Below, piece after piece: positions 6,156 to 32,864 of a stretch of DNA of 34,726 nucleotides. The notes below the pieces were generated by a model. That model was not told the origin of the DNA. It saw only the letters and a list, made by a program, of their open reading frames with translations, and did no database searches. Positions within the stretch are counted from its first letter, which is position 1; each line of letters opens with the position of its first letter. The translations under genes and the position numbers were made by a program. The stretch is from a virus. The stretch spans positions 1 through 34,726 of IMG/VR virus record IMGVR_UViG_3300042874_000020. The stretch is one strand, 5' to 3'.

Positions 6156-6614
6156 GTGGCTGAGCAACTCGCAAGAATCGGTGGTCGCTCCGAACTGCAC
6201 TACGACGATATCGATCAGGCGTTCCCAACGGTGGAACCCGGTCTCAGACCCTTCGGGTCGCTCGTGCTCGTGCAGAAACGATCACCGCGCACAGTCACGA
6301 GAGGTGGGATCTACGTTCCACAAGATACCCAGGAGACCGAGTTCTGGAACACTCAGGTCGCCAAAGTCATTTCTCTTGGACCGGCTGCATTCAAGAATCG
6401 CGATACCCTCGAACCATGGCCTGAGGGGGCGTGGTGCCGGGAAGGTGCTTACGTGCGCGTTCCGAAGTACGGTGGTGATCGCTGGCTCGTAGACCTTCCC
6501 GGTGCTGAGTCCCGTCGCATCGGTGTTGACCAAGCATGCTTCTGCATCTTCAATGACCTCGACTTGATCGGAGAGATCACATGCAACCCGCTCGAAGTCG
6601 TGGCGTTCCTGTAA
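6156..6614 (+). CDS. GroES-like co-chaperonin (Cpn10 family)
   Basis: The 152-residue product has the Cpn10 layout: RPFGSLVLVQKR (residues 31-42) as the first strand pair, a mobile-loop region RTVTRGGIYVPQDTQE (45-60) that would contact GroEL, AKVISLGPAAF (69-79), and a later YVRVPKYGGDRWLVD (99-113) matching the usual RVLFGKYAG segment. It is longer than host GroES (about 97 residues) through an N-terminal 30-residue lead and insertions. Phage co-chaperonins such as T4 gp31 help host GroEL fold the capsid protein, and its place in the head module fits that. The start is GTG 6156, directly after the upstream TAA and preceded by a G-rich Shine-Dalgarno region. No GroEL-like partner is visible in the window. 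Confidence 0.8.
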   Translation: MAEQLARIGGRSELHYDDIDQAFPTVEPGLRPFGSLVLVQKRSPRTVTRGGIYVPQDTQETEFWNTQVAKVISLGPAAFKNRDTLEPWPEGAWCREGAYVRVPKYGGDRWLVDLPGAESRRIGVDQACFCIFNDLDLIGEITCNPLEVVAFL

Positions 6615-20074: not shown

Positions 20075-20341
20075 ATGACGGATCAACAACAGCAACAAAC
20101 GTCCATCAACATCGAGCAGGTGAGGGGGGCGGCAGCTGCTGGCCTCAGACTCCTGGACGACAAGGACATGAAGGTGCCGATGGATATTGCGATCAACGGC
20201 TCACTGGGAGTTCTGCGGATGTTGCTGCTAGGTGTTGCGAACGGGCAGCTGGTTTTCACTACACCTCCGTCGCAAGACAAGCAGCCCGCCCATCCTCCGC
20301 AGGACAAGCAACTTCGGAGCGTTGATGGAAATGCTTCCTGA
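20075..20341 (+). CDS. Small hypothetical protein at head of lysis cassette
   Basis: Start ATG 20075 is preferred over ATG 20069 because GGGG at 20065-20068 is then 6 bases away. The 88-residue product has a Gln-rich start (TDQQQQQ), a central amphipathic/hydrophobic helix (GSLGVLRMLLLGVANGQLV) and a Lys/Gln/Pro-rich end. It overlaps the next start. It has no clear transmembrane segment long enough for a holin. Unknown function. Confidence 0.6.
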   Translation: MTDQQQQQTSINIEQVRGAAAAGLRLLDDKDMKVPMDIAINGSLGVLRMLLLGVANGQLVFTTPPSQDKQPAHPPQDKQLRSVDGNAS

Positions 20342-20633
20342 GGGATGGTTCAGCATTTTGATCCAACTCCCGATCACGGGGTTTGTGGTGTGGGTGATTC
20401 TCCAGCTGCTGAAGCAGTCCCGGGATGAGCGAAAGACCTTCCTGGAAGCCATGGAGAAAGCAGACGTTCTGTTTGCCACTGAACTGCGGTTGGATCGAGA
20501 AAGTTTGGAGAAAATGTCAGTCAAGACCTATGAGGCTTTGGGAAACCTGGCTCTGGCGATCATGGAATTGCGTGGGGAAGTTCGGACGAGCCAAAAGGCT
20601 GCCATGCACAACGACAGGACGCTCCAGCGGTGA
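20325..20633 (+). CDS. Single-pass membrane protein with coiled coil (spanin- or holin-like)
   Basis: From ATG 20325 (CGGAG at 20315-20319) the product is 102 residues; ATG 20331 is an alternative. Residues 8-29 (WFSILIQLPITGFVVWVILQLL) form one membrane segment, followed by a charged coiled coil to the end. That topology matches inner-membrane spanins but also some accessory holins. It overlaps the preceding gene by 17 bases and ends by overlapping the DUF5675-like gene (GTGA), so it belongs to the lysis cassette. A lipoprotein that could be its outer-membrane partner is encoded at 21449. The specific call is inference. Confidence 0.65.
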   Translation: MEMLPEGWFSILIQLPITGFVVWVILQLLKQSRDERKTFLEAMEKADVLFATELRLDRESLEKMSVKTYEALGNLALAIMELRGEVRTSQKAAMHNDRTLQR

Positions 20634-21118
20634 ACCTTACTCTGGTTCGCTTCAGCTATGCCCCCACGGAGACTGAGGGCGTTCTGTACGTGGCAAGTCA
20701 TCGACTGGCTACGATAGAGAAACCCTGGGTCCCGTTTGTCAACGTTGGGGGGAAGCCTTTCGAGTCTTGTGTTCCTGATGGAACGTATCGACTCCGCCCC
20801 TGGGTCCGCGCGACGAACAACCAGAGCTGCTTCATTCTGGAGGCTCCTACCCTTGGCGTCTATATGCGCGAGACCGATCGGCCAGCGGGGATCGGTCGGT
20901 ATCTTTGTCTAATCCATACGGGTAATTACGCTGATGACGTCGTTGGATGCATTGCCGTTGGAATGTCTCGCGGGATCATGTTGAACCCGAGAACTGGCAA
21001 GAGGGAACGCGCTGTTCTAGGAAGCACTGGAGCCATTCAACTCCTTAGGACTGAGCTCCAGGAAGGAACTCACCAATTAACAATCGCCTCAATCGGGGGC
21101 GCGCGGGGGACTGCCTGA
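20630..21118 (+). CDS. DUF5675-like protein, candidate lysis enzyme
   Basis: The 162-residue product starts at GTG 20630, overlapping the previous stop. The pattern VASHRLATIEKPWVPF, then SCVPDGTYRLRPW, then LIHTGNYADDVVGCIAVG (His96, Cys107) matches DUF5675 proteins as I know them. The His...Gly-Cys pair recalls the active site of YkuD L,D-transpeptidases, which act on peptidoglycan. No canonical lysozyme, amidase or peptidase lies in the cassette, so this gene, placed between a membrane protein and a holin-like gene, is the best endolysin candidate. There is no signal peptide. The enzymatic role is inference, not known for the family to my knowledge. Confidence 0.72.
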   Translation: MNLTLVRFSYAPTETEGVLYVASHRLATIEKPWVPFVNVGGKPFESCVPDGTYRLRPWVRATNNQSCFILEAPTLGVYMRETDRPAGIGRYLCLIHTGNYADDVVGCIAVGMSRGIMLNPRTGKRERAVLGSTGAIQLLRTELQEGTHQLTIASIGGARGTA

Positions 21119-26408: not shown

Positions 26409-28112
26409 ATGAAGACACAGGGTGGGTTGGCACAAATGCTCGCAAGTCGTGGTGCTGACGCAACCACGGTGAAAGCTGCGCAGCAGATTGAATTGGTTCC
26501 TGGTGCGCCCGAGCTGCTCTTCACGCAAGCAGCACAGCGTCTCGCGACGAACCAAGGTGCTACGAAGAAGAACGCGCAGCAGATCCGCCTGTATTGCACG
26601 GGAGGCCTAGTGCACAAAGCACGTGGCGGTGCACTCGCGGCAGCACAGACAACTCGACGTGCGGGTCGTGGCGATGACTCGATGCTGCTGCACCTTGCGC
26701 CCGATGAGTACGACGCATTGACGAAGCTGTGGGGCAAGCCCGAGATCAATCCGAAGACGGGCATCCCCGAGTATGGCTTCCTCAGCAAGGCGTGGAAGAA
26801 AGTGAAGGGAGCCGTCAAGAAGGTCTTCAGATCCCCAATCTTCCAAACCGTCGCACCGATCGCACTCTCAATTTTTGCTCCGTGGGCAGCGCCAGCGATT
26901 GGCGCAGCGCTGGGTGCCGCAGCAGGCAGCACCACCGCAGCCATCGTTGGTAACGCAGCTCTCGGTGCGGGTATGGGTGCCATCGCCGAAGGCAGAGAAG
27001 GCCTTCTTCCGGGAGCACTCTCCGGTGGCATTGCGGGGGGGTTGGGTTCAGCAGCGGGAGCGAAGCTCGGCCTCTCTGGGACGATGGGGGACGTTGTTGG
27101 TAGTTCGCTGCTGCAAGGTGCAGGCAGCTCGTTGTCGGGCGGCGACTTCGCTGAAGGTGCCCTTGAGGGTGGCCTCAACGCAGCTATCGTGCGGCCTATG
27201 CAACAGAACCTCGCGAGTGCTGGGCGTTCAGCACTCGGGTTGGATAAAGCTCCGACGGGTGGACTCGATCTCGCTGCAACCGGATTAGAAGTCCCCTCTC
27301 CGGATCTGTCAGCGGGTCCCCTACCCGGTTTGGGTGGGGCGGGATATACCCCACCTGCTGCTGGTACGGCTGGCACTGCACAGCAAGCCATCACACCGGC
27401 AGCGAAAGGAGACATGTCGCAGTACCTTCTGCCGGGTCTCATGGCAGCGGGTGTGGTGGGGGGTGCAGGCCGCAGCTACGAGGAAGGTCAACCACCGTCA
27501 ACGCCTGAGGGCTTCGATACCCCGTTGCCCCAGTACGAGTTGAACCGACAACGGATGAGTCCGTTGAGTGCAGCGGCGTATTACACGTACGGTCAGCCCG
27601 GTGCGGCACAGACAGGTCAGCGTCTGTTCCTTGGCCCCGAAGCGGTTGCACAACCTCCGGGTGGGCTGGCGGCTGCAACGGGAGCTGGCGCTGTGGGCGG
27701 TGGTTCCATCATCCTGCCGCCCGGTAACACGGGTGCGATGCAGCGACAAGCGTTGACGAAGCAGGGGTGGACGTTCAACCCCACGACTAACGAGATGATT
27801 CCGCCGCAAGCCGCACCGAAGCGAGCGGCACATGGTGCATTAGTGCAGGGACCGGGCACCGGGAGGTCCGATGATATTGATGCAAAACTATCTGACGGCG
27901 AGTACGTCGTGGACGCTGAAACTGTCGCACTGCTCGGCGATGGGTCCGGTTCTGCCGGTGCCCGAAGACTTGATGAGATGCGAAAAGCCATCCGTCAGCA
28001 CAAAGCCAAGAAGCTCGCGAAAGGGGAGTTCACGCACAAGGCGAAAGCGCCGATGAAGTACATGGGGAATGCCGCATTGCGGCGATCACGGATCGCAGCA
28101 GGGAGAGCGTAG
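26409..28112 (+). CDS. Internal virion (ejection) protein, Ala/Gly-rich
   Basis: The 567-residue product has a polar N-terminus with CTGGLVHKARGGAL, a hydrophobic Ala/Gly-rich stretch at about residues 135-290 that could insert in membranes, a Pro/Gly-rich middle, and the motif GRSDDIDAKLSDGEYVVDA followed by LLGDGSGSAGARRLDEM. I know that last motif from tape-measure-like and internal proteins of many phages. The C-terminus is basic. Podoviruses eject such proteins to build a channel through the host envelope. It is the first of a run of four similarly unusual proteins. Role inferred from composition and context. Confidence 0.7.
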   Translation: MKTQGGLAQMLASRGADATTVKAAQQIELVPGAPELLFTQAAQRLATNQGATKKNAQQIRLYCTGGLVHKARGGALAAAQTTRRAGRGDDSMLLHLAPDEYDALTKLWGKPEINPKTGIPEYGFLSKAWKKVKGAVKKVFRSPIFQTVAPIALSIFAPWAAPAIGAALGAAAGSTTAAIVGNAALGAGMGAIAEGREGLLPGALSGGIAGGLGSAAGAKLGLSGTMGDVVGSSLLQGAGSSLSGGDFAEGALEGGLNAAIVRPMQQNLASAGRSALGLDKAPTGGLDLAATGLEVPSPDLSAGPLPGLGGAGYTPPAAGTAGTAQQAITPAAKGDMSQYLLPGLMAAGVVGGAGRSYEEGQPPSTPEGFDTPLPQYELNRQRMSPLSAAAYYTYGQPGAAQTGQRLFLGPEAVAQPPGGLAAATGAGAVGGGSIILPPGNTGAMQRQALTKQGWTFNPTTNEMIPPQAAPKRAAHGALVQGPGTGRSDDIDAKLSDGEYVVDAETVALLGDGSGSAGARRLDEMRKAIRQHKAKKLAKGEFTHKAKAPMKYMGNAALRRSRIAAGRA

Positions 28113-29363
28113 ATGTCCAGCATCACTGACTTTTTGTTTGAGGGGCAACCCCCAAAGTCGGTCACAACCTACGGGCAGACAGTCGAGAACGTCCCCAAGT
28201 GGATGTCCGACTATACGCAGGGACTGATCGCACGCGCGAACGCCGCTGCAGCTGAGCCGTTCCAACCGTACGAAGGCCCGCGCATCGCAGGCTTCTCTCC
28301 GGAGCAGGAGCAGGCGTTCGGGTTAGCCGAGCAGAACGTGGGTGCGTATCAGCCGTACCTCGAAGCGGGTGCTGAGGCTACTGCTGGTGGACTAGAGCAA
28401 GCAGCGCGTGCTGGCAGGACCGACGTACGTGGCGCAGCGCAGCCATACCTCGACGATGCATCGGGTAGCTTTACTGATCCTGGCAACGTCGAAGCGTACA
28501 TGAACCCGTACGTTCAGAACGTGCTCAATCGGCAAGAGAGCCTGGCAAATCGCACGCTGTCGGAGAGGTTCCTGCCGCAGCTCCAACGGACGTTCGCAGG
28601 GGCAGGGCAGTACGGCTCACGCGGTGGCTTCGGTTCAATGGAAGACATCGGTGTCAGGGGCGTGCGTGACATCCAGGAGAACTTGGAAGAACAGCGCCTC
28701 GCCACGCTTGGTCAGGCGTATGGGCAGGCGGCAGACATCTATGGTGCTGACCGGGGACGTTCCGCAACGCTTGCACAGACGGCGGGGGGGCTCGAACAAG
28801 CGACGGGTCAGCTTGGAATCCTCGGTGCGAATGCGCAGATCCAAGGGGCCAACCAACTTGGCCAGATGGGAGAGGAGGCGTCGAAGCTCGGTGCTATCGA
28901 TGCAGCATCGCTCGAAGCCATTGGCAACGCACGGCAACAGCAGGGTCAGCGCAGTCTTGATCTCGCGTACGGAGACTTCCAGGAGCAACGCGACCTGCCC
29001 CTTAGACGAGTTGGTTTCATGTCGGACATCATTCGGGGGCTGCCCGCATCAGCGATCGGCGGCACGAAGACCACCACCGAAGTGGGTCCCGCATCGATCT
29101 ACCAGCCGTCAGGTCTATCGCAGATCGCGGGTGCATACGGCGTGTACAAAGGTCTCAAGGAAGCACGTGGTGGTGGGGTCCGTGCAGCGGAGGGTGGCTA
29201 CATCGACAACGAGACGGGCCAGTACATCGAAGATCAAACGGCACCGATGGTCGATCACCCTGCGCACTACGGCGGCATGAACGACTACGCGATCGGAGGG
29301 CTGGCGCGCTACGCCCGTGGGGGAAAGTTGCGACGTCGGATGGAGTTGATGAGTATGCGTTAG
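28113..29363 (+). CDS. Internal virion protein; possible -1 frameshift near its end
   Basis: The 416-residue product starts SSITDFLFEGQPPKSVTTYG and is mostly alpha-helical and Gln/Ala/Gly-rich (GFSPEQEQAFGLAEQNVGAY, then long helices), a pattern seen in podoviral ejection proteins. The C-terminus has AEGGYIDNE and AIGGLARYARGGKL, the same Gly-Gly motifs found in neighbouring proteins. Eleven codons before its stop lies GGGAAAG (29321-29327) in the phase G GGA AAG, and the -1 frame remains open to 29572, so a longer 486-residue form may be made. ATG 28113 has GGGAGAG upstream. Confidence 0.75.
   Translation: MSSITDFLFEGQPPKSVTTYGQTVENVPKWMSDYTQGLIARANAAAAEPFQPYEGPRIAGFSPEQEQAFGLAEQNVGAYQPYLEAGAEATAGGLEQAARAGRTDVRGAAQPYLDDASGSFTDPGNVEAYMNPYVQNVLNRQESLANRTLSERFLPQLQRTFAGAGQYGSRGGFGSMEDIGVRGVRDIQENLEEQRLATLGQAYGQAADIYGADRGRSATLAQTAGGLEQATGQLGILGANAQIQGANQLGQMGEEASKLGAIDAASLEAIGNARQQQGQRSLDLAYGDFQEQRDLPLRRVGFMSDIIRGLPASAIGGTKTTTEVGPASIYQPSGLSQIAGAYGVYKGLKEARGGGVRAAEGGYIDNETGQYIEDQTAPMVDHPAHYGGMNDYAIGGLARYARGGKLRRRMELMSMR
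29321..29327 (+). promoter_or_regulatory. Candidate -1 ribosomal slippery heptamer
   Basis: GGGAAAG is read as G GGA AAG in the frame of the 28113 gene, fitting X-XXY-YYZ. The same heptamer in the same phase drives the lambda G/GT frameshift. A GGAGGG lies at 29295-29300, about 20 bases upstream, farther than usual for a stimulatory Shine-Dalgarno. A possible GCTGCG/CGCAGC stem lies near 29380-29407, also too far for a classical stimulator. Site clear; function inferred. Confidence 0.55.
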
Positions 29364-29572
29364 GGGGTCTCGCACAAGCGCTGCGGGGGATCGGTGCTCG
29401 CGCAGCTGCAGCAGGGAAAAGTATGTTGGGGCGAGCATCGAACTGGGCACGTTCGCTGACAGGTCGGGGTCGACAGCAACCCGGACTGCGAGCTGCGGCG
29501 CGTTGGATCTATCCGCACTGTGACCTAACAACGGATGCACAGGGTGCAATCAAACTAGAGGACGAGGACTGA
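29327..29572 (+). CDS. -1-frame C-terminal extension of the 28113 gene (or separate small ORF)
   Basis: After slippage at 29321-29327 the -1 frame encodes 81 residues with no stop until TGA 29570-29572, which overlaps the next ATG (TGATG) as neighbouring genes do. The extension begins VATSDGVDEYALGGLAQALRG; DEYALGGLAQ closely echoes NDYAIGGLAR of the unshifted frame just upstream, arguing that it is real protein of the same kind. It continues with an Ala/Arg-rich helix and ends IKLEDED. It fills the only gap over 100 bases in the window. Alternatives are an ancestral gene split by a point frameshift, or a 49-residue ORF from ATG 29423, which has AGGG upstream. Confidence 0.55.
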   Translation, partial: VATSDGVDEYALGGLAQALRGIGARAAAAGKSMLGRASNWARSLTGRGRQQPGLRAAARWIYPHCDLTTDAQGAIKLEDED

Positions 29573-30966
29573 TGGCACGCAAACGGCGGTACCAAAGTGG
29601 TGGCCTCGCTGAAGTAGCAGGCATCGATCCGTACGACGAAGACGCCATGGAAGAGGCTGCGAGCACGGGTGCTCTTGAAGCAGTGGCTACCCCTGCGGAA
29701 GAGATCGTCGACAACACGGTGTCGTCGGGTAGCGTGCAAGAGTCATTGAAGGCATCGCGCGCCCTCAACAAGATGACGTACGAAAAAGCGCTCGAACGAT
29801 TGAAGGTGGGACGCGACGCGTTGATGGCAATGAATCCCCAGGACAAGTCGTCGAAGTGGCTGGCACTTGCGCAGGGTATGTTGGCTCCGACACGGACTGG
29901 TGGTTTCGGCGAGTCAGTCAGCACCACAGCCGGGTTGCTCCGTCAGCAACAGGAGCTTACGAACAAGAGTGATATGGATCGCCAGCAAGCCCTGCAGGAA
30001 ATAAACAAGCAGGAAGCCGACGCAGAAGCGGGTTATGCCGAGCGCGACATCGACCTCACTGAAAAGGAAGCGACCCAAGCAACGCAAGCACGCGCACGAA
30101 TGCTGCCGAGTTACAACGGCATCGTTAAGTCCGGGGATCAGGCTGCGAAGTTGGGGCTAGATCCCTCCAAGGATCACGTCGTTCGTGTTGATTCTGTGAT
30201 GGACCCCAGCGGCAACGTCACAACGAAGCTGAGCACTCTTGAAGGAGAAGTCCTTGACGTCGCGGTATCGACGAACCCGGAGACGGTTTCTGGAACGACA
30301 ACCGCACGTGAAGAAGCGGAAGGTGCTACCGGCACCCACCTGAGAAACATCGATGCTGCGGTGGGCGCAATGGCAGTCGCGCCGAAGATCAAAGATGCGT
30401 ACCGCATCCTGGCAAAAATCAAAGCGAACGGCGGCAAGACGAGCGGCTTGAAGACCGACCTGCTCAAGTTCACAGAGTACTTCGGCATCACGGAGGATAC
30501 GATTCCGGAAGGGGTCGACTTGCTCACACTGCAGAGCAAGGTAGGTGGCGCGATCCTGGATCAGCTGCTGAGGCTCACGGGTAGTAAGACGGACTTCGAG
30601 TACCGGAAGATCGAAGAGCAGCATTCTCGGTTGACGGCGAACGTCGACACGAACATGAAGGTCCTCGATGAGATGAGTAAGACCTACGACAATGTGATCG
30701 AGCGGGGCTACACATCGACAGGCCAACTCAAAGACCAGAACTACGGGCAGTATGCTCGTAACCAGATCGACTCCTACCGGAAGCAACAATCGGCTACCGG
30801 TGGGGGCGGGCCGAGCCGTGTGCCCCCCACTGCAGCTGTTGACATCTTCCTGGATCGCATCGGGCGGGCCCCCGACAAGGCGGCAGAACTGAAGCTGTTC
30901 CAAAAACGCTACGACATCTCAGATGACCTGAAGGTGGAGCTGCGTAAATTAGGAGTCGGAATCTGA
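29572..30966 (+). CDS. Putative internal virion protein, helical
   Basis: The 464-residue product begins ARKRRYQSGGLAEVAG, again with the Gly-Gly motif, then an acidic region and long Ala/Glu/Gln/Lys helices (LLRQQQELTNKSDMDRQQAL...). The C-terminal third has LTGSKTDFEYRKIEEQHSRL and ends in a small helical domain (AVDIFLDRIGRAPDKAAELK). No membrane segment or enzyme motif is visible. The ATG overlaps the preceding -1-frame stop, and its TGA overlaps the next ATG. Ejection-protein role is from context. Confidence 0.68.
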   Translation: MARKRRYQSGGLAEVAGIDPYDEDAMEEAASTGALEAVATPAEEIVDNTVSSGSVQESLKASRALNKMTYEKALERLKVGRDALMAMNPQDKSSKWLALAQGMLAPTRTGGFGESVSTTAGLLRQQQELTNKSDMDRQQALQEINKQEADAEAGYAERDIDLTEKEATQATQARARMLPSYNGIVKSGDQAAKLGLDPSKDHVVRVDSVMDPSGNVTTKLSTLEGEVLDVAVSTNPETVSGTTTAREEAEGATGTHLRNIDAAVGAMAVAPKIKDAYRILAKIKANGGKTSGLKTDLLKFTEYFGITEDTIPEGVDLLTLQSKVGGAILDQLLRLTGSKTDFEYRKIEEQHSRLTANVDTNMKVLDEMSKTYDNVIERGYTSTGQLKDQNYGQYARNQIDSYRKQQSATGGGGPSRVPPTAAVDIFLDRIGRAPDKAAELKLFQKRYDISDDLKVELRKLGVGI

Positions 30967-32864
30967 TGGCTGCTGAAGAGGATCCGTATGCAGAGTTCGA
31001 TGCGGACTTTGATCCGTATGCGATGTTGGATGAGCAGCCTGCGGAAGAAGAAGAGAAGACTCCCTTCCCAGAGAAGCGCGGAACGTCGCGCGCATCCATC
31101 CAACTGCCTGAGGTTGCACAGCTAGGCACCCGGAAATTTCTTCCGCCTGCCGAAGGTGTGAGAGGCGCAGCGAAGAACGCAGGCGTGACAGCTGCCATAC
31201 TGACGACGTCAGATCCCGCTGAGATTGCGAAGATGCTGGCCGCACAGAACCCGGACGTTGGTATCACGTACGCACCGGACGGAGCCCTCATTGCAACTAA
31301 CAACGCCAATGGGGCGCAAGCGGTTATCAATCGTCCAGGTGCCAGCTACATGGATATCCTGCAGACGTTGGGCCTTGCGTCAGCATTCACACCGATCGGT
31401 GGTCTCGCAGCTGGGGCTACAGCTGTGCCGCTGATGGCTGCACGCACAGCAATCACCGAGACGGCGAAGAAGAAAGCACTGAATGAAGCTACGAAAGCTG
31501 CTGTAGGGACGATGACCGTTGGGTCCGGTGTAACAGAAGGCGCGCTACAAGCGGGGCAATCACTGGCGGGTGGCGAATTCAACGCGGGAGACGTTGCCCT
31601 CAGCGCTGCTGCTGGTGCGATACCAGAGTACATCGCAAAGCCTGTTGTCGGTGCAACGACGAAGCTGCTCCCAGGTTCCTTGCAAGAAGCAAAGAATGTC
31701 CTGCCAACTTCGTTGGGGGGCAAGAGTACTCAAGAGGCTGCCAAAGAAATCGCCCCGGCGACGATCACACAAGCGTTGCAGTACGCGGAAGACACCGGCA
31801 AGAAGATCGCAACGTCGGACGCACTCTTCGAGAAGCTGACGCCACCGCTGAAAATCTTCTTCAAGATGGCTGAGCGAATCCCTCTCACCGGCTTGGGTTC
31901 AACTCGCGTGAAGCAGCAAGCGCAGCGTGCGGACACCCTGACTGAGCTAGCACACGAGTACAACATCGACGTCGATACTGACTTGGGTCAGGAGATCGCG
32001 CAGTCGTTTGTCGATCGCATGGTCAGGGCGAGGTTCTGGGGGGCGAACAAGAACCCCACAACAGATCAGTTGGGGCGCGCCTGGAAACGTGAGAGTGACA
32101 TGATCACTGATCGGGTGCTGCGCAAGCACGTAGCGAACGGTGACCTCAACGGTGACATCGTGGACAAGCTGCTTGACTCCGACAGACCTGTCCTCATGCG
32201 AGAGTTGTTCGGGAAGCTCACACCGGATGGCCGGCGAGCTGTGCGCCAACGATTCATGTCGAAAGCGTTGGAGGCGGGGAAGTGGCGACCAGACGCTGCA
32301 CCGCAATCGGTGGATCCCACCAAGTTCGCTGCGTTTATGGACACACCTGAAGCTCGCAGATCAATCAGGATCCTATTCAGCGAGCGTGATCAAGAGGTGC
32401 TAGCGGGTGCGCGTGAATACCTGAAGATCACGCAGAAGGCGCAGACGGCAGGCAAGGGTCTCGGCATGGCAGCCTCCGCTGGAGTGGCAGGTGTATCCCT
32501 CATGGCTGAGATGTTGAATGCCCTCGTCGGCACTCTTGCGGTTACCAGTGCTGTGGCACACACGGTTGAGAGTGACGTCATGCGTAACCAGTTCCTCCGA
32601 CTTGCACATGCCAAGGGCAATCCGGAAGCAACGGAAGCGATCATGAACGCGATCCGGCCAGCCATCGTGGCAGGGGCTGAGCAGTGGAGGCAGCAGCGCT
32701 ACGACCTGCCCCAGGTCGACATCCCTGAGATCACACCGGACATGTTGAAGACGGAAAGCCAAAAGAAGATGTCTGAGTTGAAGCGTCGAGCCAAGGAGAG
32801 CACCTCCGGACTCGCCGAGCTTCCGTCACGAATCATTCAAATGCTCCAAGGAGCAGCACCGTAA
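30966..32864 (+). CDS. Putative internal virion (ejection) protein with hydrophobic segments
   Basis: The 632-residue product has an acidic disordered N-terminus with repeated DPYA (residues 6-20), a hydrophobic Ala/Gly-rich segment at about 124-165 (LGLASAFTPIGGLAAGATAV), a large helical middle, and a second hydrophobic segment at about 496-535 (MAASAGVAGVSLMAEMLNAL). Such potential membrane-inserting stretches in a late virion protein fit a DNA-ejection channel component. The C-terminus is helical and basic. It overlaps its upstream neighbour (TGATG). No peptidoglycan hydrolase motif was seen. Role inferred. Confidence 0.68.
   Translation: MAAEEDPYAEFDADFDPYAMLDEQPAEEEEKTPFPEKRGTSRASIQLPEVAQLGTRKFLPPAEGVRGAAKNAGVTAAILTTSDPAEIAKMLAAQNPDVGITYAPDGALIATNNANGAQAVINRPGASYMDILQTLGLASAFTPIGGLAAGATAVPLMAARTAITETAKKKALNEATKAAVGTMTVGSGVTEGALQAGQSLAGGEFNAGDVALSAAAGAIPEYIAKPVVGATTKLLPGSLQEAKNVLPTSLGGKSTQEAAKEIAPATITQALQYAEDTGKKIATSDALFEKLTPPLKIFFKMAERIPLTGLGSTRVKQQAQRADTLTELAHEYNIDVDTDLGQEIAQSFVDRMVRARFWGANKNPTTDQLGRAWKRESDMITDRVLRKHVANGDLNGDIVDKLLDSDRPVLMRELFGKLTPDGRRAVRQRFMSKALEAGKWRPDAAPQSVDPTKFAAFMDTPEARRSIRILFSERDQEVLAGAREYLKITQKAQTAGKGLGMAASAGVAGVSLMAEMLNALVGTLAVTSAVAHTVESDVMRNQFLRLAHAKGNPEATEAIMNAIRPAIVAGAEQWRQQRYDLPQVDIPEITPDMLKTESQKKMSELKRRAKESTSGLAELPSRIIQMLQGAAP

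Follow-up and report, generated by a model that had tools for sequence, protein, structure and literature searches.

Probable programmed −1 frameshifting near the end of a putative DNA-ejection gene in a clade of uncultured phages

INTRODUCTION

Does a phage virion gene with a single obvious stop codon specify one protein or two? The question is raised by the window analyzed here, i.e., the whole stretch of 34,726 nt taken from positions 1 to 34,726 of the IMG/VR virus record IMGVR_UViG_3300042874_000020. Shortly before the stop codon of one frame-0 ORF lies a slippery heptamer, from which the −1 frame runs on into the start of the next gene (Table 1). Comparison with related sequences makes it very probable that a programmed −1 ribosomal frameshift occurs at this heptamer, G_GGA_AAG, and would yield two forms of a probable DNA-ejection virion protein, of 416 aa and 486 aa.

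RESULTS

The gene end in the window

The initial annotation had proposed an in-phase GGGAAAG 11 codons before the stop, followed by an open −1 frame of 81 codons whose TGA overlaps the next ATG, and a GGLA pattern repeated at both C termini. All of this agrees with the coordinates. In frame 0 the heptamer is divided as G GGA AAG, and 11 codons separate it from the TAG. The −1 frame reads GGG AAA GTT GCG and onward, giving a predicted long product of 405 + 81 = 486 aa. The repeated pattern is present in frame 0 in NDYAIGGLARYA and in the −1 frame in DEYALGGLAQAL, and the extension contains, besides this second YALGGLA motif, a Trp-containing segment and an acidic end. Yet the window by itself is only suggestive of a frameshift, because 3.3% of 5000 synonymous shuffles of the window ORF place a shift-prone heptamer of the tested sets within the final 60 nt, and because at least 69 codons stay open at 33% of the forward positions of this GC-rich window.

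Table 1. Features of the gene end and of its two neighbors (window coordinates)
Feature	Coordinates	Strand	Basis
Upstream gene, 567 aa, probable partner virion protein; glycine-rich hydrophobic stretch, N-terminal QGGLA	26409..28112	+	
Short form, 416 aa, frame-0 ORF, probable DNA-ejection/internal virion protein	28113..29363	+	ORF, phrog_4287 match, 66 related viral contigs
DYAIGGLARY motif, frame 0, immediately 5′ of the heptamer	29283..29312	+	Translation
GGAGGG, 20 nt 5′ of the heptamer, doubtful stimulator	29295..29300	+	Also codes Gly-Gly of the GGLA motif
Slippery heptamer G_GGA_AAG, in phase	29321..29327	+	GGGAAAG at the corresponding place in L002, L004, L005, L006, L007, L044
−1 frame extension, 81 codons; TGA 29570-29572 overlaps next ATG (29572)	29328..29572	+	Reading frame, dN/dS, profile match
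DEYALGGLAQ motif in the −1 extension	29348..29377	+	LGGLA invariant in 7/7 class 1 extensions
TAG stop ending the short form	29361..29363	+	Sequence
Next gene, 464 aa, begins at the −1 stop; N-terminal GGLA motif too (YQSGGLAEV)	29572..30966	+	

Gene identity and neighborhood

The best family match of the frame-0 protein is phrog_4287, “DNA ejection protein” (residues 22-343, E 4.9e-11), which spans most of the conserved part; Pfam and NCBIfam gave no match for this protein. The ORF stands in a run of virion-type genes, preceded by the upstream gene and followed by the next gene, by a gene at 30966-32864 and then by the terminase small subunit, with the terminase large subunit, the portal and a head-protease-type protein at the opposite end of the window. 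This local gene order is common to the window and Caulobacter phage GB2A, the one named relative examined, which has the short form only. The identification as an internal virion protein, made in the initial annotation, thus finds support in one profile match and in gene order, from which we take the product to be a probable DNA-ejection protein. Structural searches added nothing to this: the AlphaFold model of one long form (L015) is poor (pLDDT 59.7) and consists of long helices, Foldseek with this poor model found no match in the PDB at E ≤ 0.001, and the best E in a profile search of PDB sequences was 0.92. Rfam gave 0 matches in the window and four loci, and a tRNA scan found none.

Some further features of the window were seen. 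Short GGLA/GGY motifs recur at the ends of adjoining virion-type proteins (26409-26440, 28113-29572 and 29572-29620), also in relatives, as if they were a shared docking motif. In the terminase large subunit ORF (112-2688, 858 aa), residues 481-503 match the NCBIfam intein C-terminal splicing region (E 5.8e-13) and terminase matches lie beyond them, so that the ORF appears to contain an intein. Another in-phase heptamer, GGGAAAC at 20540, lies 91 nt before the stop of ORF 20232-20633, with a −1 frame that continues 485 nt beyond the stop through ORF 20630-21118 (phrog_1501); this could be chance with overlapping genes. The region 6156-6614 weakly matches a phage GroES-like co-chaperonin family (E 2.3e-6).

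Relatives and their four arrangements

A scan of viral contigs gave 66 related loci, and three more scans, started from other queries, brought up mostly the same close contigs, so that the close clade looks nearly exhausted in the collection scanned. The clade consists of uncultured phages of the short-tailed type. In it and its neighbors the end of the gene is arranged in four ways. In the first, here called short-0, the short form is in frame 0 and an in-phase heptamer is followed by a −1 extension. It comprises the window and 13 other distinct viral contigs, in which both the heptamer and the −1 frame are conserved, and it falls into three classes: class 1, with GGGAAAG (window, L002, L004 to L007, L044), class 2, with GGGAAAA (L010, L013, L020, L038), and class 3, with CCCAAAA (L011, L018, L021). 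In the second, here called long-0, the extension is itself in frame 0, a heptamer occupies the corresponding place and a −1 shift would meet a stop 3-8 codons later. These are 12 relatives, with GGGAAAA (L015, L019, L032, L034, L035) or CCCAAAA (L008, L014, L017, L026, L030, L031, L033). The third arrangement has the extension in frame 0 and no heptamer near the end (L022 to L025). The fourth has no extension; it is found in L029, in L036 and in more distant relatives including GB2A. L029 and L036 branch within the extended clade; both lack the heptamer as well as the extension, and their proteins finish with ...YWEVA right at the next gene. The device is thus dispensable in some lineages, since L022 to L025 (long form only) and L029 and L036 (short form only) lack it.

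Counts below refer to 29 distinct ORFs, one from the window and 28 from other loci. They exclude exact copies (L003, L009, L012, L016, L027, L028, L037), the near-copies L024, L039 and L049, the truncated L055, L029 and L036 (no extension) and every more distant locus; L034 and L035 were both kept though nearly identical. The related C-terminal domain lies inside the frame-0 long protein in 15 of the 29. A tblastn search with the window extension against 50,697 phage records gave no match at E ≤ 1, a viral contig scan with the same query yielded 34 pattern stretches with 0 confirmed, and a genome contig scan yielded 1 distant relative among 66 stretches. The distant relatives examined have the short-form ending and no comparable extension, and their GGGCCC heptamers sit in Gly-Pro codons.

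Codon choice at the heptamers

Of the 45 Gly-Lys or Pro-Lys pairs within the last 330 nt of the 29 ORFs, 26 are slippery, and these are spread over 26 ORFs with exactly one in each; the remaining 19 are not slippery. Elsewhere in the genes the figure is 13 of 64 such pairs. An in-phase heptamer occurs in the last 330 nt in 26/29 ORFs versus an expectation of 3.84 under synonymous shuffling. Because the ORFs are related, the trials are not independent, and neither the 26/45 count nor the 26 versus 3.84 is a probability. Within the GGGAAAA class (8/8) and within the GGGAAAG class (7/7) every sequence uses the same Gly and Lys codons at the site, and CCA AAA is found in 10/10 sequences of the CCCAAAA class. 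Both G_GGA_AAG and C_CCA_AAG are called highly shift-prone in Escherichia coli in PMC5009743.

Selection on the −1 extension

Of 30 within-class pairs, 16 have unsaturated dS, and in these the −1 frame beyond the frame-0 stop has dN/dS values from 0.10 to 0.46. The window and L002, for example, differ there at 15, 10 and 33 sites in codon positions 1, 2 and 3 (dN/dS 0.096). Class 1 extensions have in common LGGLA, a Trp, a Cys and an acidic end, and their profile matches the C termini of the other classes (probability 92.8%, E 4.1e-7). By these measures the −1 extension is coding and under purifying selection. The proposal of a −1 frameshift with genuine coding finds strong support in relatives, in the conserved heptamer, the conserved −1 frame, purifying selection and class-specific stimulators. 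An early stop in the −1 frame of relatives had been named in the initial annotation as evidence against it. Such stops do occur in the 12 long-0 relatives, but there the extension sits in frame 0 and a shift would give the short form, which makes the case for a frameshift stronger.

Stimulators differ between heptamer classes

The GGGAAAA sites of class 2 are followed, after a 5-nt spacer, by a stem-loop in 4 short-0 and 4 long-0 sequences. In the two polarity sets the alifold z scores against column shuffles are −5.6 (0/200 as low) and −4.6 (1/200 as low), with 2 and 1 pairs changed on both sides; the pairing register differs between the sets, and single-sequence z scores over 40 nt run from −2.8 to −5.1. 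Four class 1 sequences, L004 to L007, have a stem-loop after a 6-nt spacer (alifold z −3.6, 2/200; 1 double change). Class 3 has the codons GCG GAG GGT GGG, a strong Shine-Dalgarno sequence 12-13 nt before the heptamer (−10 kcal/mol with the anti-Shine-Dalgarno), in 10/10 sequences (7 long-0 and 3 short-0), and at other copies of the same amino acid motif these codons were found in 0/27. In classes 2 and 3 the stimulators go with sites in both arrangements.

The window has no recognizable stimulator. No structure 3′ of its heptamer is better than shuffles (z +0.6 to +1.6), and the GGAGGG that it shares with L002 and L044 is badly spaced, 20 nt upstream, outside the roughly 10-nt spacing of dnaX. 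Some known frameshift sites work without a stimulator.

The form that needs the slip differs among relatives

A tree built from the shared N-terminal region unites the extended clade in one group (100/99), and on it the form made in frame 0 changes at least 4 times. A single clade of the seven crown short-0 sequences is rejected (p-AU 1e-5). The GGGAAAG short-0 type is basal and weakly resolved (80/81, 83/89), and this position suggests, without proving it, that the arrangement of the window is older than the others. A single base immediately 5′ of GGGAAAA distinguishes two relatives of opposite polarity, L008 (long-0) and L020 (short-0), and the stem-loop at the site has −26.1 kcal/mol in L020 versus −13.9 kcal/mol in L008. 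In L038 an N-terminal part like that of L011 is joined to a class 2 end. Because of this combination, C-terminal cassettes probably recombine at the frameshift region, and some polarity flips may be cassette swaps.

As read from the tree, the conserved trait is the making of both forms, and the form needing the slip has changed at least four times. This swap among relatives suggests that both forms are needed. Because the roles were exchanged repeatedly, we infer that the ratio of short to long form is fairly balanced, like that of dnaX tau and gamma. An efficiency of about 50%, as in a dnaX-type gene, would follow from the repeated reversal only.

DISCUSSION

The frameshift could work as follows. 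Near the end of the probable DNA-ejection gene some ribosomes would slip back by one base, giving a short and a long protein: the short form would end at the TAG, and slipped ribosomes would add the 81-codon extension to reach 486 aa. In long-0 relatives a slip at the kept heptamer, with its stimulator, would make the short form instead. Both forms would then be needed, in a ratio that is not extreme. They might be two subunit types of one virion ejection protein, both present in the ejection apparatus, and the extension, in which YAxGGLA is duplicated, might offer a second docking point to a neighbor. Such docking is proposed because GGLA is also found at the N termini of the proteins from the genes on either side. 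A wider reading, to which we give even chances, is that the ejection family keeps a fairly balanced, dnaX-like pair of C termini made by frameshifting, in which the slipping form was exchanged at least four times by single-base changes or cassette swaps, the signal was reinvented (with another heptamer, or an internal Shine-Dalgarno in place of the stem-loop) and the two forms are distinct subunits of one ejection machine.

Other explanations for the extension have to be weighed against a frameshift that serves to make two proteins. The slip could mainly bring ribosomes to the next gene by translational coupling, with only shifted ribosomes reaching ATG 29572 in the window and the extension as a by-product. 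The overlap of the −1 TGA with the next ATG in the window, L002 and L004 to L007 would fit this, since unshifted ribosomes stop 208 nt short of the next gene. However, the amino acids of the extension are conserved, with the low dN/dS given above (0.10-0.46), and match the C terminus of other relatives; long-0 relatives retain slip site and stimulator although their ribosomes get to the next gene without shifting; and GAGGACGAGGAC, just before ATG 29572 of the window, resembles a ribosome-binding site of its own. We regard coupling as an unlikely main role. It is far less likely still that the extension is a separate small protein started within the −1 frame. The window does have an ATG at 29423, which the initial annotation had named as a possible sole start, and L005 and L006 have an ATG before the GGLA of their extensions. 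Such a start is not conserved: ATG and GTG are absent from the extension in 7 of the 14 short-0 sequences (all 4 of class 2, all 3 of class 3), and in 13/14 the stretch from the preceding −1 stop to the heptamer has no −1 start, so that no start codon accounts for the extension. Internal initiation, against which also speaks the place of the related domain within the frame-0 long protein in 15/29 ORFs, was therefore rejected.

An indel or an assembly error that recently split one gene, with an incidental heptamer, could be suspected from the single base that separates L008 from L020 and from the window, which alone is only weakly unusual. The split form recurs, though, in 14 distinct sequences and three classes, each with its own heptamer, which contradicts this explanation for the clade; identical copies come from different metagenomes (L002/L003, L011/L012) and the extension remains under selection, and we hold such an accident to be extremely improbable. 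Nor do we expect slippage of the transcriptase rather than the ribosome, a reading suggested by the G5A3 at the window site. Bacterial transcriptional slippage is described, in the part of PMC5009743 that treats it, with runs of about nine A or T. The runs here are short, and the tandem-codon phase and the Shine-Dalgarno and stem-loop stimulators fit ribosomes, for which reasons we rejected transcriptional slippage as a very remote prospect. A narrower doubt concerns the long-0 relatives, whose heptamers might be leftovers or coincidences of codon choice, with no short form made there and frameshifting confined to short-0 phages. Codon choice does yield in-phase heptamers elsewhere in the gene (13/64), a nearby −1 stop is unremarkable by itself, as 11-46% of codons have one as near, and L022 to L025 have no site. 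Against this stand the Shine-Dalgarno codons specific to the site in 7/7 class 3 long-0 sequences versus 0/27 elsewhere and the covarying stem-loops of the class 2 long-0 set, and we find it rather unlikely that these heptamers are idle.

Several elements of the proposed frameshift are already known, according to the relevant passages of PMC5009743 and PMC5658483: frameshifting in virion genes (T7 gene 10 and others), role reversal in dnaX and a putative slippery sequence before a podoviral internal virion protein. Our literature search, which had most subscription papers and all preprints outside its scope, found no report of a frameshift in this ejection family and, within the same scope, none of role reversal in a virion gene. 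If true, an ejection protein joins the short list of virion genes with programmed frameshifting. The clade also provides a natural series, in which heptamer, stimulator and polarity of one two-product gene have all changed among close relatives, so that the link between slip efficiency and subunit ratio becomes directly testable. Ordinary gene calling would report the short form only in phages of the window type and the long form only in the others, hiding the homology of the ends.

Comparison with known systems

The heptamer of phage lambda G/GT is GGGAAAG, and the initial annotation had likened the locus to that device. The likeness holds for the heptamer and for a shift near the end of the upstream ORF. 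It does not extend to the setting: in the lambda type a chaperone gene stands just before the tape measure gene, whereas here a member of a DNA ejection family is followed by two virion-type genes and the terminase small subunit. The lambda gpG/gpGT pair is, in the account of PMC5009743 that concerns it, a tail assembly chaperone absent from virions and made at about 30:1; the product here is probably an ejection protein. Another comparison is with genes 39/40 of Alteromonas virus vB_AspP-H4/4, for which a passage of PMC5658483 gives a putative slippery sequence and a −1 shift at a podoviral internal virion protein. There the shift is reported to lie between an endolysin gene and an internal virion protein, and the passage deals with one genome, with no comparative test.

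The closer analogies are T7 gene 10A/10B and dnaX. In T7, and also T3, A2 and PSA, frameshifting close to the 3′ end of a virion gene yields a product with a C-terminal extension, as the corresponding section of PMC5009743 describes; gene and signals differ from ours, and that section does not mention role reversal for the T7 type. In dnaX (tau/gamma), the parts of PMC5009743 devoted to it describe a −1 shift at a heptamer with an internal Shine-Dalgarno 5′ or a stem-loop 3′, a short product that ends a few codons past the site and roles of frame 0 and frame −1 that are reversed in some species. Our case differs from dnaX in being a phage virion gene, in its G_GGA_AAR or C_CCA_AAA heptamers in place of A_AAA_AAG and in having either a Shine-Dalgarno or a stem-loop, the two never being seen together. 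As in E. coli dnaX, a −1 shift in the long-0 relatives would cut the protein short, 3-8 codons past the site. Among relatives the roles are reversed at a single site, as in a dnaX-type two-product gene, and a gene with two forms and reversible roles is a better likeness for this locus than lambda G/T.
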